This document shows positions 22,677-30,582 of a stretch of DNA of 32,265 nucleotides, in pieces; position 1 is the stretch's first letter; each line of letters starts with the position of its first letter. Location: positions 1 through 32,265 of the forward strand of contig JALEZD010000012.1 in the NCBI GenBank assembly GCA_022772735.1, in the 5' to 3' direction. Below the pieces are notes generated by a model. The model was not told the origin of the DNA and made no database searches. It saw only the letters and a list, made by a program, of their open reading frames with translations. The stretch comes from Erysipelotrichaceae bacterium (GTDB lineage: Bacteria > Bacillota_I > Bacilli_A > Erysipelotrichales > Erysipelotrichaceae). Both the position numbers and the translations under genes were made by a program.

Positions 22677-23459
22677 ATGAAAATACTTTGTCCAATTTGT
22701 AAACATGAACTCTTAAAAAATGAAAAAACTTATTCATGTATTAATAAGCATTGTTTTGATATTTCAAAATATGGTTATTTAAATATTGATATTAAAAATT
22801 CTCCATCAGGTGATAATAAAGAAATGGTTAATTCACGAACAAGTTTTTTAAATCAAAATTATTATCTACCATTAAAAACTGAATTAAATAATATAATAAA
22901 AAATTTAAATAAAAACACTATTTTAGACTTAGCATGTGGTGAAGGCTACTACACAAAAGATTTTCCAGTAAAACAAAAATTTGCGATAGACCTATCTAAA
23001 GAAGCAATTAAACATGCATCAAAAAGCGATAAATCTACCCAATATATTATTTCATCTATATACAACCTTCCATTTGAAAATTCTACCTTTGATCTAATAA
23101 CAACTATCTTTGCCCCAATTTCATTTGATGAAATAAATAGAGTATTAAAAAATGATGGCTATTTTATACTTGTTTCACCAAATAAAAATCATTTAATTGA
23201 ACTTAAAAATGTATTGTATGATACTCCATACTTAAATCAGGATACAACTATTGAACAATTTAATTTATTATCAACAAATAATATAGACTACACATTTACA
23301 GTTGATAACACAATGTTAAAAAACTTATTTAAAATGACACCTTATTATTATAAAACAAGTAAAAAAGATGCAGATAAGTTAAATGACATAAATACCTTAA
23401 CAATCAGTGCATCTTTCAATATTTCTGTTTATAGTAAAATTTTACCAATACAAGTATAA
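22677..23459 (+). CDS. rlmA: 23S rRNA (guanine-N1)-methyltransferase, RlmA type
   Basis: A 260-residue SAM-dependent methyltransferase for m1G at 23S position 745 or 748 (E. coli numbering; the Gram-positive RlmA(II)/TlrB form targets 748). An N-terminal zinc ribbon has Cys5, Cys8, Cys21 and His25, then FDISKYGYLNID, the characteristic link. SAM binding is at DLACGEGYYT (84-93), with IDLS and SIYNLPFENSTFD following. The start ATG has no ribosome binding site and sits where transcription is predicted to start, so it may be leaderless. The gene is convergent with the nadD fusion and overlaps it by 31 bases at the 3' end. Which guanine is modified cannot be decided here. Confidence 0.85.
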   Translation: MKILCPICKHELLKNEKTYSCINKHCFDISKYGYLNIDIKNSPSGDNKEMVNSRTSFLNQNYYLPLKTELNNIIKNLNKNTILDLACGEGYYTKDFPVKQKFAIDLSKEAIKHASKSDKSTQYIISSIYNLPFENSTFDLITTIFAPISFDEINRVLKNDGYFILVSPNKNHLIELKNVLYDTPYLNQDTTIEQFNLLSTNNIDYTFTVDNTMLKNLFKMTPYYYKTSKKDADKLNDINTLTISASFNISVYSKILPIQV

Positions 23460-24685
23460 CCTTCAAGAGTTTCAGAATCAGTTTCAAAAACAAATTCGAA
23501 ATTCTTTTTTTCATTTTCAAAGGCGATTGCTGTATTCGCAAGTGATATTCCAATATCCAAATCCGTTAATGAATAAAACATATTCATAATTTTATTTTCC
23601 TTTTTAAATACATAAATAAAATTATTTTTTTCTAGAAAATACCACGGTTGTCCATTCAAGCCAGATTGAGCTAATCTTGTTGCCTCAAAAAATTTTAAAT
23701 TTCCATTATAAATTTCAGAAACATTTTTTCTTTTAAACTCTTCATTTCTAAAAAGATTTCCAGCTGCATACCCAAACCCAATAACGATAATTGTATCTTT
23801 TTCATATTTCGTATCAGCTAATCCCAACCATACACTTCCTAATCCTATTGACGCAAGCCATAGTGTCCATTTTTGCAAAATGTAGCCGATATTAACTAAA
23901 TTAGTTTGATTTTTTTTACCACTAACAACCAAATAATGTGGCGCCCTTGCAAAATTAAAACCCTTTAATTCACTATAACCTTTTAAAGAAATACTAAACT
24001 CCACACTATTTGATACACCAGAATATAACTTTACCTTTTCTAAGACATAATCAACATTTTCAATTTTTTTATCTAAAAATTTCCTTATGCTTTTTCTTTT
24101 AAAAATAAAATCATATAAATTTTCCTTATATAAATCATGCTTTAAAATATAACTTTTTACAGCTTCATCTATTTTATTACTATTTCTATTTGATTTTAAA
24201 TTTTCTCTAATCTCACTAGATGATACATCTTCTTTTTCTAAATTGGTATATATTATATTATTCTTATAATCAGATAAAAAATCTAAGAGAACATCATCAT
24301 TTCTACTAATAACTAATAGCTTATAATTATTTAAAATATACTCATAGTTTTTCCACTTATTAAAATAACTTAAATTATCAAATCCTAAAACAAAATATAT
24401 CTCATCATTAGGATATTGACTTTTAAAATAATCTAATGTTTCATATGTGTATTTCAAACCATTTTTAACTTCGTAATCCGAAACTAGAAGGTTATCTTTA
24501 TCACAAATTAATTTAAGCATATTATATCTGTGTATTCCATCAATCAAATCTTTTTTTTGATAATCATCTCCCGTTGGAACAAATATCAATTTATCAATAT
24601 ATCCATTTTCTAATAATTTATCTGCAATTTTTTTATGTTTAACATGTGGAGGGTTAAAACTACCCCCAAAAATTCCTATTTTCAT
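23429..24685 (-). CDS. nadD: NadD fused to TM1586-type nitroreductase domain
   Basis: Two domains in one 418-residue chain. Residues 1-190 are a complete nicotinate-nucleotide adenylyltransferase (NaMN + ATP to NaAD + PPi): GIFGGSFNPPHVKH (4-17) with His14 and His17, and VSSSEIREN (154-162). Residues 191-418 match the putative nitroreductase family of TM1586: FIFKRKSIRKF (193-203), NIGYILQKWTLWLASIGLGS with WLG, GFGYAAG, and RLAQSGLNGQPWYF (337-350). The usual NadD is about 190-210 residues and stands alone or is fused to an HD domain; this fusion is unusual. The ATG overlaps the nadE stop by four bases. Last gene of the fum-mae-NAD operon; no terminator hairpin seen, and the end overlaps rlmA. 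Confidence 0.85.
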   Translation of the reverse strand: MKIGIFGGSFNPPHVKHKKIADKLLENGYIDKLIFVPTGDDYQKKDLIDGIHRYNMLKLICDKDNLLVSDYEVKNGLKYTYETLDYFKSQYPNDEIYFVLGFDNLSYFNKWKNYEYILNNYKLLVISRNDDVLLDFLSDYKNNIIYTNLEKEDVSSSEIRENLKSNRNSNKIDEAVKSYILKHDLYKENLYDFIFKRKSIRKFLDKKIENVDYVLEKVKLYSGVSNSVEFSISLKGYSELKGFNFARAPHYLVVSGKKNQTNLVNIGYILQKWTLWLASIGLGSVWLGLADTKYEKDTIIVIGFGYAAGNLFRNEEFKRKNVSEIYNGNLKFFEATRLAQSGLNGQPWYFLEKNNFIYVFKKENKIMNMFYSLTDLDIGISLANTAIAFENEKKNFEFVFETDSETLEGYTCIGKILL

Positions 24686-26586
24686 ATTTCAATGTTTTCC
24701 AAATCATTCAACCAAATTTCATAATCAGCGTCACTTGGCATTCTTAAATCACCTCTAGGTGACAATGACACACTACCAACTTTAACGCCATCAGGCATAC
24801 AATTACGTTTAAATTGTTGAGTAAAAAACCTTCTAACAAAAACCTTTAGCCATTTTAAAATTGTTTCATTATCAAATTCATCTTTAAATGTATTACATGC
24901 AATATAATAAATTTTGCTTGGTTTAGCACCATATCTTAAAAAATGATATAAGAAAAAGTCATGTAATATATATGGTCCAACATTATCTTCTGTTTTTTGA
25001 GCAATATTTCCATTTGAGTCTGGAGGCAATAATTCAGGAGAAATAGGAGTATTTAGTATATCATTTAATACATCTTTACACTCTGTGTTATGCTCTTTAA
25101 AATAACCAATTAAATATTTAATTAATGTTTTTGGAATCGAGCTGTTTATTGCATACATACTCATATGATCACCATTATAAGTACACCAACCAAGTGCAAG
25201 TTCACTCAAATCACCCGTACCAATAACAAGCGCATTCTCTTTATTAGCAACATCCATTAAAATTTGTGTTCTTTCTCTTGCTTGAGAATTTTCATATGTG
25301 ACATCATGTATATTTACATCATGTTTAATATCTTTAAAATGTTGTAAAACTGCATCTTTAATGCTTATTTCTTTTAATGTTGCGTTAAATATTTTTGCCA
25401 AATTTAATGCATTTTCATAAGTTCTATCTGTAGTACCAAAACCTGGCATTGTAATTGCAATAATATTTTTATTGTCAATATTTAATATTTTATTTGCTTT
25501 AACAATAATTAAGAAAGCTAAAGTTGAATCTAGCCCACCTGATAAACCAAGTACCGTCTTTTTACAATTTATTTGCATCATTCTTCTTGCAAGTGCATAA
25601 CTTTGTATATTAATTATTTCTTCAAAAGTTTTTTCTTGATTAACTTCAGGTACAAATGGAGTTTTACTGTAATATCTAGCTAAATTTTGCGATTTATCAA
25701 ATAATGTAAAATTAACATATCGATATTTACTTTCTAATTCAAATGTAGTATTTTTACTTCTTTCATTTATTAACCTTTCAACATCAATATCTGCATAAAT
25801 TATTTCACCATCAAAATTGAATCTTTCACCTTCACATAATAAACTACCATTTTCATATATATATGTTGCGCCAGAAAATAATAAATCACTACTACTTTCA
25901 CAAACGTTATTTGAAGCATATACATATGCGCAAATATTTTTTGCACTCTGTATTTTTATTAAATCTTTTCTATATTCATTTTTACCAACAAGTTCATTAC
26001 TAGATGATAAATTAAATATAATATTTGCACCATTTGAAGATAAATCTGTACTCTTAGGTTTAACACTCCATAAATCTTCACAAATTTCTATTCCGAAACA
26101 AACTTTTCCACTTTTAAATAATAAATCATCTCCAATAAAAACATTATGTCCATTTAATAAAATTTCACTTTTATTTAATTTTTCACTAGAAACAAACCAT
26201 CTTTTTTCATAAAATTCATTATAATTTGGTATAGACTTTTTACAAGTAACTCCTAAATACTTCCCATTTTCAATAACAATAGCACAATTAAATAATTTAA
26301 AATCTATTTTTAAAACACTTCCTACAATTATAGTGATAGGTTTATTAACACTATATTTTCTAAGTTGCTCTAATACAAAATTACACTCCTCAATTAATAT
26401 ATCTTGAAAAAATAAATCACCACATGTATAACCACATAAACTAAGTTCTCCAAAACTAATAATATCTACCTCTGATTTTATCGCATCATCAATTTTCTTT
26501 TTTAAATCTATTAAATTATATTTAGGATTTGCGATTTTAAGCTTGTTATTTGCACTAGCGACTCTTATAAAACCATATTGTTTCAT
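24682..26586 (-). CDS. nadE: Glutamine-dependent NAD+ synthetase
   Basis: Converts deamido-NAD to NAD with ATP and glutamine. The 634-residue length fits the two-domain form. The N-terminal nitrilase-fold glutaminase has the triad Glu47 (SFGELSLCGY), Lys117 (KKSIPNYNEFYEKRWF) and Cys169 (CFGIEICEDLWS). The C-terminal synthetase has the PP-loop SGGLDST (349-355) and later GTGDLSELALGWCTYNGDHM, typical of NadE. The start shares one base with the pncB stop (TAATG). The ammonia is thus supplied internally from glutamine. Confidence 0.97.
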   Translation of the reverse strand: MKQYGFIRVASANNKLKIANPKYNLIDLKKKIDDAIKSEVDIISFGELSLCGYTCGDLFFQDILIEECNFVLEQLRKYSVNKPITIIVGSVLKIDFKLFNCAIVIENGKYLGVTCKKSIPNYNEFYEKRWFVSSEKLNKSEILLNGHNVFIGDDLLFKSGKVCFGIEICEDLWSVKPKSTDLSSNGANIIFNLSSSNELVGKNEYRKDLIKIQSAKNICAYVYASNNVCESSSDLLFSGATYIYENGSLLCEGERFNFDGEIIYADIDVERLINERSKNTTFELESKYRYVNFTLFDKSQNLARYYSKTPFVPEVNQEKTFEEIINIQSYALARRMMQINCKKTVLGLSGGLDSTLAFLIIVKANKILNIDNKNIIAITMPGFGTTDRTYENALNLAKIFNATLKEISIKDAVLQHFKDIKHDVNIHDVTYENSQARERTQILMDVANKENALVIGTGDLSELALGWCTYNGDHMSMYAINSSIPKTLIKYLIGYFKEHNTECKDVLNDILNTPISPELLPPDSNGNIAQKTEDNVGPYILHDFFLYHFLRYGAKPSKIYYIACNTFKDEFDNETILKWLKVFVRRFFTQQFKRNCMPDGVKVGSVSLSPRGDLRMPSDADYEIWLNDLENIEI

Positions 26587-28025
26587 TATTCAACACCTGC
26601 ACTTTTTTTATGTTCTAAAATCATTTTCTTCTTTAAATCAAGTAAATTTCTACTTAAATCAACATAATATTTATGTGGTTTAACTAAACGCTTTATTTCA
26701 GGATAAATTGTTCCAATTTGCACATTACAATATATTTGTTTTGTAAATATATCTGGATCCTCATAAACAAGTTTACCATCTTTAAATAACTCTACTTGTA
26801 ATTCTTTTACAATATAATCTTTAATAACTGTTGTATTAAATTCATTAAGTGGATCTATTAATGTGAATGTATCTTCAGGAATTATTTCATCATGCAATGC
26901 CATTACATCTCCTAATGCAAATCCAGTTTTTTTATCAAAAAATCTATAAAGTTTTTTATAACCCGGATTGATAATTTTAATTGCATCATTACTTATTTTT
27001 ATTCTAGGAATAATATGTCCTTCTTTTTCAACTGCAACAAGTTTGTAAACTACTCCAACCCTCTCTTTTGGTGCTGCAATATTATCACCTGCACCAATCA
27101 AATCAAACTTAGAACCTTGTATTCTCAAGGCATTTATTGTATGTGGATCAATACCATTAGATATTGTTATTTTACAGTCTTGCATTCCTGCTTCATCAAG
27201 TATTTCTCTAACTTTTTTTGATAAATATGATAAGTCACCACTATCAATACGAACACCTTTTAACCTGTACCCATTTGGAATCAAATAATCATTCGCAACT
27301 TTAATCGCATTAACAACTCCACTTTTTATTGTGTCATATGTATCAATTAAAAACACAGAATCATTTGGAAATGACTTCGCAAATTTCAAAAATGCTTCAT
27401 ATTCACTTTCTTCTGCAGAAACCATAGAATGTGCCATTGTTCCCATAACAGGAATTCCATATTCTTTAGCTGCCATTACATTAGAAGTACCAACACACCC
27501 AGCAATATATGCACATTTACTTGCCAAAACTGCTGCCTCTGGCCCATCAGCTCTCCTTGCGCCAAATTCTAAAATAGGTATGCCATTAGCTGATTCAACC
27601 ATTCTTTTTGCAGCAGTTGTAAATTTTATACAACTATTTAAATATGAAAGTATAGTTGTTTCAATAAGCTGTGCTTCAATTAAATTAGCTTTAACACTTA
27701 TAAGTATTTCATTATCAAAAATAACTGTACCATCAGGCACAATCCAAATATCACCTCTAAATTTAAAATTTCTTAAATATTCTAAAAATTTTTCATTAAA
27801 TCGTTTTGTACTTCTAAGATATTCTATATCTTCATCTGTAAATTTTAAATTTTGTATATATTGAATGATATTATCCACACCACCCATTATTGCATAACCG
27901 CTACCAAATGGAATATTTCTAAAGAAACCATCAAAATATGCAACACTATCTAATGCATTATCATCAAAATATGCTTGAGCCATAGTTAACTCATACAAAT
28001 CCGTCATCATTGTTTTATTTTCCAT
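26586..28025 (-). CDS. pncB: Nicotinate phosphoribosyltransferase
   Basis: Salvages nicotinate: nicotinate + PRPP + ATP to NaMN, ADP, Pi and PPi. The 479-residue enzyme starts TDLYELTMAQAYF and has the family's EFGARRADGPEA, GTSNVMAAKEYG, PVMGTMAHSMV and RIDSGDLSYLSKKVR motifs. AGGGG lies five bases before the ATG. It overlaps the malic enzyme gene by 11 bases and nadE by one base. With nadD and nadE it forms a complete Preiss-Handler route from nicotinate to NAD; no nadABC is present here. Confidence 0.97.
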   Translation of the reverse strand: MENKTMMTDLYELTMAQAYFDDNALDSVAYFDGFFRNIPFGSGYAIMGGVDNIIQYIQNLKFTDEDIEYLRSTKRFNEKFLEYLRNFKFRGDIWIVPDGTVIFDNEILISVKANLIEAQLIETTILSYLNSCIKFTTAAKRMVESANGIPILEFGARRADGPEAAVLASKCAYIAGCVGTSNVMAAKEYGIPVMGTMAHSMVSAEESEYEAFLKFAKSFPNDSVFLIDTYDTIKSGVVNAIKVANDYLIPNGYRLKGVRIDSGDLSYLSKKVREILDEAGMQDCKITISNGIDPHTINALRIQGSKFDLIGAGDNIAAPKERVGVVYKLVAVEKEGHIIPRIKISNDAIKIINPGYKKLYRFFDKKTGFALGDVMALHDEIIPEDTFTLIDPLNEFNTTVIKDYIVKELQVELFKDGKLVYEDPDIFTKQIYCNVQIGTIYPEIKRLVKPHKYYVDLSRNLLDLKKKMILEHKKSAGVE

Positions 28026-29202
28026 AAATACCCCTTATATTTTTAGACTTAATACATGCTTTTTTTACTGCTTCACAAACAGTATTACATACTCTATCAT
28101 CAAATGCTGAAACAATTACATTTTCTTCATTTAGTTGCGAATAATCTATTAAACTTGCAATCGCAACACTAGCAGCCATTTTCGCATCATCATCAATTTT
28201 TGTGGCTTTAGCCTCTAAAGCTCCTTTAAATATTCCAGGAAATGCCAATAAATTATTAACTTGATTTGGTCTATCAGATCTACCAGTACCAACAATATAT
28301 GCTCCTGCATCTTTTGCATCATCATATGAAATTTCAGGTTCAGGATTTGCCATCGCAAATACAATAGATTTTTCATTCATCTTTTTTATCATTTCTTTAG
28401 AAACAATTCCTTTTGCAGATACTCCAACAAAAATATCAGCATTTTCAAAAGATAGTTCAAAACTAAAGTTTTTATCATCTAAATTTACATATTCTAATAA
28501 CTCTTTTTTCAAATCATCATAAATTTCAATATCTTTTTTAGTTAAAATTCCATCTTTATCAAATGCATATATTTTTCTAAAACCATACTTATACATCATT
28601 CTAATTATAGAGCTTCCTGCTGCACCTGTACCACTAACAATAACTTTACATTCACTTGCAGATTTTTCAATCAGTTTAAGACTATTAATTAAAGCAGCTA
28701 AAACTACTATTGCAGTTCCATGTTGATCATCATGGAAGACAGGAATGTTCATTTCATTTATCAATCTTCTTTCAATTTCAACACAGCGAGGTGCACTTAT
28801 ATCTTCAAGATTTATTCCACCAATTCCACATTCAATAGATTTGCATATTTTAATAATTTCTTCACTATCTTGAGTATTTAAAACCAAAGGAAATGCATCT
28901 ATTCCAGCAAATTTCTTCATAAGCATTGCTTTACCTTCCATTACAGGCAAAGAAGCACCACCACCAATATTTCCTAATCCTAAAACTGCACTTCCATCAC
29001 TGATTATCGCAACAGTGTTTCCTCTATTTGTATATTTGTATGAATTATTTTCATCATTATAAATTTCTAAACAAGGTGCAGCAACTCCTGGTGTATAAGC
29101 TAAAGATAAATCATCTTTATTTTCACAAGGAACTTTTATTTTTATTTCAAGTTTACCCTTATTTTCTTCATGTAGCTTTAAAGCTTTTTTATAAATGTCC
29201 AT
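28015..29202 (-). CDS. NAD(P)-dependent malic enzyme
   Basis: Oxidatively decarboxylates malate to pyruvate and CO2 with reduction of NAD(P). The 395 residues match the short bacterial malic enzymes (about 390-410). Seen are LAYTPGVAAPCLEI, MEGKAMLMKKFAGIDAFP (catalytic Lys), VFHDDQHGTAIVV, the Rossmann motif VSGTGAAGSSII, and FAMANPEPEI. Cofactor preference is not certain; Asp in IYAFDKDG at the end of the second beta strand favours NAD. It follows fumB after nine bases and overlaps pncB by 11, so it is co-transcribed with fumarase and NAD-synthesis genes. Confidence 0.95.
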   Translation of the reverse strand: MDIYKKALKLHEENKGKLEIKIKVPCENKDDLSLAYTPGVAAPCLEIYNDENNSYKYTNRGNTVAIISDGSAVLGLGNIGGGASLPVMEGKAMLMKKFAGIDAFPLVLNTQDSEEIIKICKSIECGIGGINLEDISAPRCVEIERRLINEMNIPVFHDDQHGTAIVVLAALINSLKLIEKSASECKVIVSGTGAAGSSIIRMMYKYGFRKIYAFDKDGILTKKDIEIYDDLKKELLEYVNLDDKNFSFELSFENADIFVGVSAKGIVSKEMIKKMNEKSIVFAMANPEPEISYDDAKDAGAYIVGTGRSDRPNQVNNLLAFPGIFKGALEAKATKIDDDAKMAASVAIASLIDYSQLNEENVIVSAFDDRVCNTVCEAVKKACIKSKNIRGIYGK

Positions 29203-29211
29203 ATAGTTCTC

Positions 29212-29733
29212 CTATTTATAAATATCATTACCATTTACATCAATTCCCACAAATACTGGAAAATCTTCAACATATAACTCATAAACTGCTTCACTTAATA
29301 AATCTTCAAACGCGACTAGTTTACTTTTTTTTATACACTTTGCAAGCAAAGCACCTGCGCCTCCTATCGCAACAAAATAACATGCCTTATTTTTTACAAT
29401 AGAAGCTTTTACCTCATCAGATCTAAATCCTTTACCTATCATACCTTTTAGACCATTATCTAACAATATAGGTGTAAACTTATCCATTCTTGATGATGTT
29501 GTTGGACCAGCACTTTCAAATTTATTTAATTCACTGTTTATCGTTGGACCAACATAATAAATTGTTTGATTTTTAATATCAAATGGTAATTGTTCATTTC
29601 TTTCCATCAACTCTACAAACCTTTTATGTGCAGCATCTCTTGCAGTATATATAACTCCATTTAAATATACTTGTTCGCCCGCAACTAAATCTAATATATC
29701 ACTATCTTTTAATGGTAAATATAATTTTTTCAT
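29212..29733 (-). CDS. fumB: Class I fumarate hydratase, beta (C-terminal) subunit
   Basis: The 173-residue beta subunit of the heteromeric [4Fe-4S] fumarase/tartrate dehydratase. Motifs are GVIYTARDAAHKRF (catalytic-site loop), YYVGPTINSELNKFESAGPTTSSRMDKF and MIGKGFRSDEV. It partners the alpha subunit encoded three bases upstream. The family also includes L-tartrate dehydratases, so fumarase is inferred from the neighbouring malic enzyme rather than proved by residues. The name follows the two-subunit convention, not E. coli FumB. Confidence 0.92.
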   Translation of the reverse strand: MKKLYLPLKDSDILDLVAGEQVYLNGVIYTARDAAHKRFVELMERNEQLPFDIKNQTIYYVGPTINSELNKFESAGPTTSSRMDKFTPILLDNGLKGMIGKGFRSDEVKASIVKNKACYFVAIGGAGALLAKCIKKSKLVAFEDLLSEAVYELYVEDFPVFVGIDVNGNDIYK

Positions 29734-29736
29734 AAT

Positions 29737-30582
29737 TTAAAACTCCAACTTAACATGCCTTAAAGCATGACAACAAATACTAACTGCACATGGTAAGCCA
29801 GCTATATGTGTTGGATAATGCTCAATCATAACTTTTAAAGCTGTAGTTTTACCCTTCAATCCTAGAGGTCCTATATTCAAATTATTTATTTCTTCAAGTA
29901 ATTCTTGTTCAAATTCAGCATATCTTTCATCTGTATTTTGTGTATTTAAATCCCTCAATAATGCTTTTTTCGCAAGAAAAGGTGCATATTCAAAATTACC
30001 ACCGATACCTATTCCAACAACAATAGGTGGACACGCATTTGGACCTGCCAATTTTATTGTTTCAATAACGAAATCCTTTACACCTGATTTACCATCACTA
30101 GGCTTAAGCATTGTCATTTTTGACATGTTTTCTGAACCAAATCCTTTTGCAGTAAGAATTATCTCTAATTTATCCCCTTCGTTTATATCAACATATATCA
30201 ATACAGGTGTATTATCTTTTGTATTTACTCTATCAAATAGTGGATCACAAACTATTGATTTTCTTAAAAAATAATTTTTGTATCCTAATGACACACCTTT
30301 ATTAATCGCATCATTTAAACTTCCACCATCTATCACAACATTCTTTCCAATAGATACATATGCACTAACCATACCTGTATCCTGACAAATTGGTACTTTA
30401 TTAGTTTTTGATATTTCAGCATTTTCCAATAAAATTCCCATTACTTTTCTACTACGGTCAGTGTCTTCATTTAAATAACCATTTTTAAGTTTGTCATATA
30501 CATCTTTTGGATATTCACTAGAAAGTTTTAAACACGCATTTTTAATACTTTCAACAATCAAATCAAAATTTATTTTCTTCAT
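29737..30582 (-). CDS. fumA: Class I fumarate hydratase, alpha (N-terminal) subunit
   Basis: The 281-residue alpha subunit that holds the [4Fe-4S] cluster. Three ligand Cys are at PICQDTG (Cys66), GPNACPPIVVGIGIGG (Cys184) and SICCHALRH (Cys270 or 271). The oxygen-sensitive cluster fits an anaerobe. It heads the operon fumA-fumB-mae-pncB-nadE-nadD. In this context fumarate (for example from aspartate or purine metabolism) would be hydrated to malate and passed to the malic enzyme. The divergent RpiR-type regulator starts 124 bases upstream. Confidence 0.93.
   Translation of the reverse strand: MKKINFDLIVESIKNACLKLSSEYPKDVYDKLKNGYLNEDTDRSRKVMGILLENAEISKTNKVPICQDTGMVSAYVSIGKNVVIDGGSLNDAINKGVSLGYKNYFLRKSIVCDPLFDRVNTKDNTPVLIYVDINEGDKLEIILTAKGFGSENMSKMTMLKPSDGKSGVKDFVIETIKLAGPNACPPIVVGIGIGGNFEYAPFLAKKALLRDLNTQNTDERYAEFEQELLEEINNLNIGPLGLKGKTTALKVMIEHYPTHIAGLPCAVSICCHALRHVKLEF

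Follow-up and report, generated by a model that had tools for sequence, protein, structure and literature searches.

The nadD locus and its gene neighborhood

The window analyzed here is a 32,265-nucleotide stretch of contig JALEZD010000012.1 from an Erysipelotrichaceae bacterium, and its source assembly is a draft of 27 contigs. Towards one end lies a tightly packed run of minus-strand genes in the order fumarase alpha subunit, fumarase beta subunit, malic enzyme, pncB, nadE, and, as the last gene, a nadD gene whose frame continues into a reductase. The features of this region are as follows.

22677 to 23459, plus strand: rlmA-like 23S rRNA methyltransferase gene, convergent (PF21302 and PF08241; NF008300 at 217.9 bits, cut-off 303)
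23429 to 24685, minus strand: nadD-nitroreductase fusion gene, 418 amino acids, ATG start, stop codon at 23429-23431
23432 to 24121, minus strand: TM1586-type nitroreductase domain, residues 189-418 (PF14512, conserved motifs, fold)
24110 to 24136, minus strand: joint between the halves, ...D184 L Y K E188 / N189 L Y D192... (alignments and joint simulation)
24122 to 24685, minus strand: NadD domain, residues 1-188 (PF01467 and TIGR00482 over cut-off, fold, motifs)
24682 to 26586, minus strand: nadE, glutamine-dependent NAD synthetase (NF002730, 822 bits), overlapping the fusion gene by 4 bases
26586 to 28025, minus strand: pncB, nicotinate phosphoribosyltransferase (NF006695, 567 bits)
28015 to 29202, minus strand: malic enzyme gene (PF00390 and PF03949)
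29212 to 29733, minus strand: fumarase C-terminal-type (beta) subunit gene (PF05683, 186 bits)
29737 to 30582, minus strand: fumarase alpha subunit gene, first of the run (PF05681, 352 bits)

An earlier note on this DNA had described an operon with pncB, nadE, and malic enzyme; all three genes are present, and the operon starts further upstream with the two fumarase subunits. The coordinates that it gave for the fusion gene, 23429-24685, are exact, and the strand, absent from that description, is minus: the frame of 418 amino acids is uninterrupted by stops on this strand, and the plus strand over the same interval contains many. The 3' ends of rlmA and the fusion gene overlap by 31 bases. The two halves of the fusion gene have similar, host-like compositions (GC 22% and 27%; window, 27%). 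Neither an NAD riboswitch nor any other known RNA was found in the window at Rfam thresholds.

Two enzyme domains on one chain

NadD converts NaMN and ATP to NaAD, the penultimate step of NAD synthesis, and the N-terminal half of the fusion protein has the sequence and predicted fold of this enzyme. PF01467 matches residues 5-162 with 81.6 bits (cut-off 21), and the NCBIfam NadD model TIGR00482 matches residues 5-186 with 140.2 bits against a cut-off of 112.45, over profile positions 1-194 of 194. The NadD motifs are present, namely GGSFNPPHVKH at residues 7-17, which includes the HxxH nucleotidyltransferase motif, D103 and W111, and SSSEIR ending at R160, and in our alignment H14, H17, S155, S156, I159, and R160 are invariant between the fusion and the NadD proteins of its congeners. 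In a search of solved structures this part of the chain matched NadD enzymes (1kam at E 7.5e-26), and its AlphaFold2 model superimposed on solved NadD/NMNAT structures with Z scores of 20-24. The presence of pncB and nadE next door agrees with NaMN, rather than nicotinamide mononucleotide, as the predicted preferred substrate. A family-by-family search of the genome detected the fusion as the sole NadD; the remaining NadD matches were short frames of 141 and 165 amino acids and a partial match in a 381-amino-acid frame. Thus no second NadD that would render the fusion dispensable was detected, and the YqeK gene retains a shrunken NadD part only. The N-terminal half would thus be the cell's working NaMN adenylyltransferase.

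The C-terminal half shows strong similarity to nitroreductases of the TM1586 type, as the earlier note had proposed. PF14512 (TM1586_NiRdase) matches residues 189-383 of the fusion with 93.3 bits (cut-off 27; profile positions 1-209 of 215), and the C-terminal domain alone scores 95.6 bits. The canonical nitroreductase family PF00881 barely exceeds its cut-off of 23.5, at 23.7 bits in the fusion and 26.7 bits in the domain alone, and no single stretch passes. The domain carries the motifs FKRKSIRKF, GLGSVWLG, SGLNGQPW, and DIGI, the columns of which are conserved in 17 homologues. It retains the columns invariant among 18 homologues, R10, G80, L88, W99, N157, Q159, D190, G192, and I193 (domain numbering) and the nearly invariant columns S12, G96, G101, R132, S154, and W161, the sole departure among these columns being P153 to Q in the APSxxNxQPW motif. 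A search of solved structures with this part found TM1586 itself (1vkw) at E 1.3e-7, and at E 3.7e-22 when a profile of 18 relatives was used. AlphaFold2 modeled both domains confidently and in agreement with the expected solved structures. The whole chain, with a 24-row alignment as input, reached a mean pLDDT of 86.8 and a pTM of 0.77, and the C-terminal half alone reached 88.9 and 0.90. This half superimposes on 1vkw with a Z score of 22.0 (rmsd 2.3 over 194 residues, 24% identity), and its first 144 residues match FMN nitroreductases such as 8cqt with a Z score of about 14. Overall, both of the Pfam domains named in advance (PF01467 and PF14512) lie over their cut-offs in one ATG-started frame that reads from NadD into the reductase with no stop between them.

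The order of the motifs in the reductase half is that of TM1586. The fusion and TM1586 (1vkw)/PF14512 are alike over the whole C-terminal half, with RKSxR, GLGxxW, PSxxNxQPW, and DIGI in succession. The FMN nitroreductases of PF00881, for example BT_1316 of Bacteroides thetaiotaomicron (8cqt), share the fold of the first part and the flavin-site motifs; in these canonical enzymes only a short distance separates RxSxR from PSxxNxQPW, both being near the N terminus, whereas in TM1586 types RKSxR and GLGxxW come first and PSxxNxQPW follows in the same chain. This arrangement suggests that the reductase is a tandem pair of half-domains forming one flavin site within a single chain, in which case the tandem halves would replace the usual nitroreductase homodimer. 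Judging from its family and motifs, the C-terminal half probably binds FMN and oxidizes NAD(P)H. In the literature that we searched we found neither biochemistry of the TM1586 family nor an assigned physiological role for reductases of this type. The reductase domain is diverged, and its closest relative among the matches listed is a standalone reductase from the same family of bacteria (L059; 35-38% identity), which pairs with it in the tree with support of 96/89 on long branches, the branch to the fusion's reductase measuring 1.45 changes per site.

The two halves meet with no linker. The NadD proteins of the congeners end with ...YILKNKLYI or ...YIIENKLYE, at a residue that aligns with about K187 of the fusion, and standalone nitroreductases start at about N189. 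In the fusion, the C-terminal helix of the NadD half closes with ...YILKHDLYKE and continues directly into NLYDFIFKRKSIRKF, which aligns with the N-terminal start of standalone reductases, for example (M)DLFDYIHKRKSCREY in L059. Most of these relatives start no more than five codons before, and no in-frame ATG, GTG, or TTG occurs near that site in the fusion. To this extent the fusion differs from the TM1586 relatives inspected, which are standalone except for one (L039): its reductase has no start of its own and is attached to NadD. The exception (L039:1704-2915) consists of a TM1586-type reductase preceded by an N-terminal part of about 165 amino acids that has no Pfam match.

Origin of the fusion and the partners of NadD

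The gene order around the fusion is shared with two congeners (G001 and G002), in which malic enzyme, pncB, nadE, and nadD are followed by convergent rlmA. In both, NadD is an unfused protein of 191 amino acids and rlmA is directly next, overlapping nadD by 4 bases or abutting it. Because the congeners keep this order with nothing between nadD and rlmA, the reductase appears to have entered at the nadD/rlmA junction in the lineage of the fusion. One lineage of the genus would have received a reductase gene in the interval from nadD to the convergent rlmA and would have lost the stop and start codons that separated nadD from the newcomer. A misplaced contig was considered and rejected, synteny being conserved on both flanks. 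G002 encodes a different TM1586-type protein at another locus (L036).

The best-known NadD fusion is NadD-YqeK, as in JCVI-Syn3A 0380, and YqeK hydrolyzes NaAD analogues, a proofreading role having been proposed for it in the fused protein (PMC9426524). NadD-YqeK (NF005519/PRK07152) resembles the present protein in having an N-terminal NadD with a second enzyme directly behind its C-terminal helix and in occurring in Gram-positive bacteria; it differs in its partner, an HD phosphohydrolase rather than a flavin-type reductase. On the present fusion, NF005519 scores 152.4 bits (cut-off 315) over the NadD part only, and PF01966 (HD) has no match. The NadD half is 55-59% identical to unfused operon-type NadD and about 33% identical to that of NadD-YqeK. 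In the fusion genome the YqeK gene occupies its usual place in the order yqeH-yhbY-yqeK-rsfS (L186), and in this genome and in both congeners a shrunken NadD part precedes YqeK (L186:1486-2265, L195:1135-1968, and L196:1117-1962). This remnant has about 100 residues in all three; that of the fusion genome starts with MRIGVCKNKFDPI, ends with VDYIYKNRLY, and resembles a NadD missing its middle. The fusion genome's gene scores 155 bits with NF005519 against 100 bits for YqeK alone and has no PF01467 match, and HxxH and SSxxIR are missing from the NadD part in all three genomes. We therefore read it as an ancestral NadD-YqeK fusion with a decayed NadD half. Since the YqeK-linked NadD is shrunken and lacks these motifs in all three genomes, the essential step must fall to the operon NadD. 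In this genus YqeK is thus no longer coupled to a working NadD, and the operon copy, on which the genus depends, has gained a reductase in the fusion species.

A survey of this architecture across genomes found it in one genome only. The full fusion was used as query against 145 genomes of relatives, 272 of the family, 395 of the class, 392 of the phylum, and 243 of the family of its closest NadD relatives, and among the matches listed in these overlapping sets (about 1,450 genome searches in all) none other spanned both halves. Named genomes scanned with the whole fusion as query yielded no relative, and a second scan with the NadD half returned 80 loci, none with both domains. The long NadD frames were examined in part and among the matches listed, and a very diverged second case could have been missed. 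We found no paper on a NadD-nitroreductase fusion in the literature searched. It is the combination of NadD with a TM1586-type reductase that is absent elsewhere in the survey; NadD fusions as such are known.

The earlier note had held that the partner in known NadD fusions is an HD-type hydrolase domain. This stands for the best-known case, YqeK (PMC9426524), and for the scanned members of the many 340-390-amino-acid NadD frames in the fusion's family, which were NadD-HD; it does not hold for the class, in which we found other partners. A NadD-NrtR protein of 483 amino acids (Nudix plus NrtR winged helix; L077:757-2205), in which an enzyme of NAD synthesis shares its chain with the NAD repressor, has some eight apparent counterparts with frames of 470-483 amino acids (including G525, G549, G561, G567, G618, G628, and G653), so that the architecture is apparently conserved in one family, one member having been scanned and the remainder assigned by frame length. 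NadD is joined to glutamine-dependent NadE in an 859-amino-acid protein (L048:1800-4376), so that consecutive reactions of NAD synthesis reside in a single protein, and to a PncC/CinA-type NMN deamidase domain in a protein of 353 amino acids (L155:3027-4085). Several genomes of one genus carry a fusion to DUF2804 (477 bits; L062:463-2055, 531 amino acids, and L065:1471-3093), its gene following pncB and nadE. At L050:2-1693 a pyridine-nucleotide FAD oxidoreductase (Fer4_20 plus Pyr_redox_2, GltD-like) is joined to NadD; this is the only other redox flavoprotein among the NadD fusions found, and it lies on the N-terminal side of NadD, whereas the reductase described here is C-terminal. Most of the partners in these other fusions act in NAD metabolism or are neighbors in the operon. 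The occurrence of NrtR, NadE, PncC, DUF2804, and FAD oxidoreductase fusions in the same class suggests that NadD fuses readily.

Possible roles of the fused reductase

Taken as a whole, the data are best explained if two complete enzymes have recently become joined in a real fusion, and we consider this explanation likely. The product is most likely a two-enzyme protein, in which an NAD-supply operon would yield a NaMN adenylyltransferase and a putative FMN/NAD(P)H reductase at the same time. The chain would hold two active sites that work independently of each other, produced in equal amounts under a fumarase/malic enzyme/NAD-synthesis operon, and co-expression may be the reason for the fusion. 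The possibility that an assembly or base-calling error has joined two adjacent or overlapping genes, which the earlier note had raised for a sequencing error, is very improbable in our estimation. In favor of an error, the assembly is a draft, the fusion is a single instance, and nadD is a separate gene in the congeners. We simulated all single-base changes at positions 541-620 of the gene: no substitution divided the frame into two genes that each had a proper start, the stop-making ones leaving the reductase with no start, and some insertions of one base around codons 182-198 terminated NadD and provided the reductase with an ATG that was out of frame and overlapping. A missed stop or frameshift at the joint is thereby rejected for substitutions and not for some insertions, so that the fusion is probable and not proven against one missing base. 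Against an artefact, the joint residues NLYDFIFKRKS match, in frame, the starts of standalone reductases, no start codon lies at the relatives' position, and a misassembly would require two break points, both exactly intergenic, with synteny kept on either side. The fusion is therefore probably real.

A real fusion may still be a neutral one, in which a chance insertion behind nadD led to read-through, the joining brings no benefit, and the reductase may be losing its function. The single occurrence in the survey is consistent with this explanation, as are the several unrelated genes joined to NadD in the class, as if its C terminus tolerates additions, and the long reductase branch. However, the frame is intact over 230 codons and nearly all conserved columns are kept, which a decaying passenger would be unlikely to preserve for long, and we regard neutral read-through as unlikely. 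Functional coupling, for which the earlier note had suggested NAD(P)H sensing, substrate channelling, or a redox partner role, seems to us rather more doubtful; in it the flavin domain would sense NAD(P)H/NAD(P)+ and tune NadD or would repair or reduce the dinucleotides that NadD makes. It has a precedent in YqeK, a NadD-fused domain that acts on NadD products (PMC9426524). In this genus YqeK has been uncoupled from the working NadD, and a new partner may serve a related need; in addition, the fusion gene is the last in an operon that also encodes fumarase, malic enzyme, and other enzymes of NAD synthesis. On the other hand, we know of no TM1586-family chemistry acting on NaAD, the fetched loci of standalone reductase relatives have no adjacent nadD, and the fusion occurs in one species only and therefore offers no conservation that would show selection. 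Still more speculative, and a slim chance at best, is the idea that the flavin domain takes the place of the uncoupled YqeK partner and controls or cleans the output of NadD by reading or correcting the redox state of pyridine dinucleotides or damage to them, which would make this step of NAD synthesis redox-gated or self-repairing.

The locus also records an exchange of partners within one genus: the NadD of NadD-YqeK decayed, the operon NadD replaced it, and the latter then acquired a reductase. Fusions hint at function, and the attachment of this domain to the sole NadD of the cell links at least one TM1586-type reductase to NAD supply. If the two halves interact, a redox sensor or repair function would be integral to NAD synthesis in this organism.
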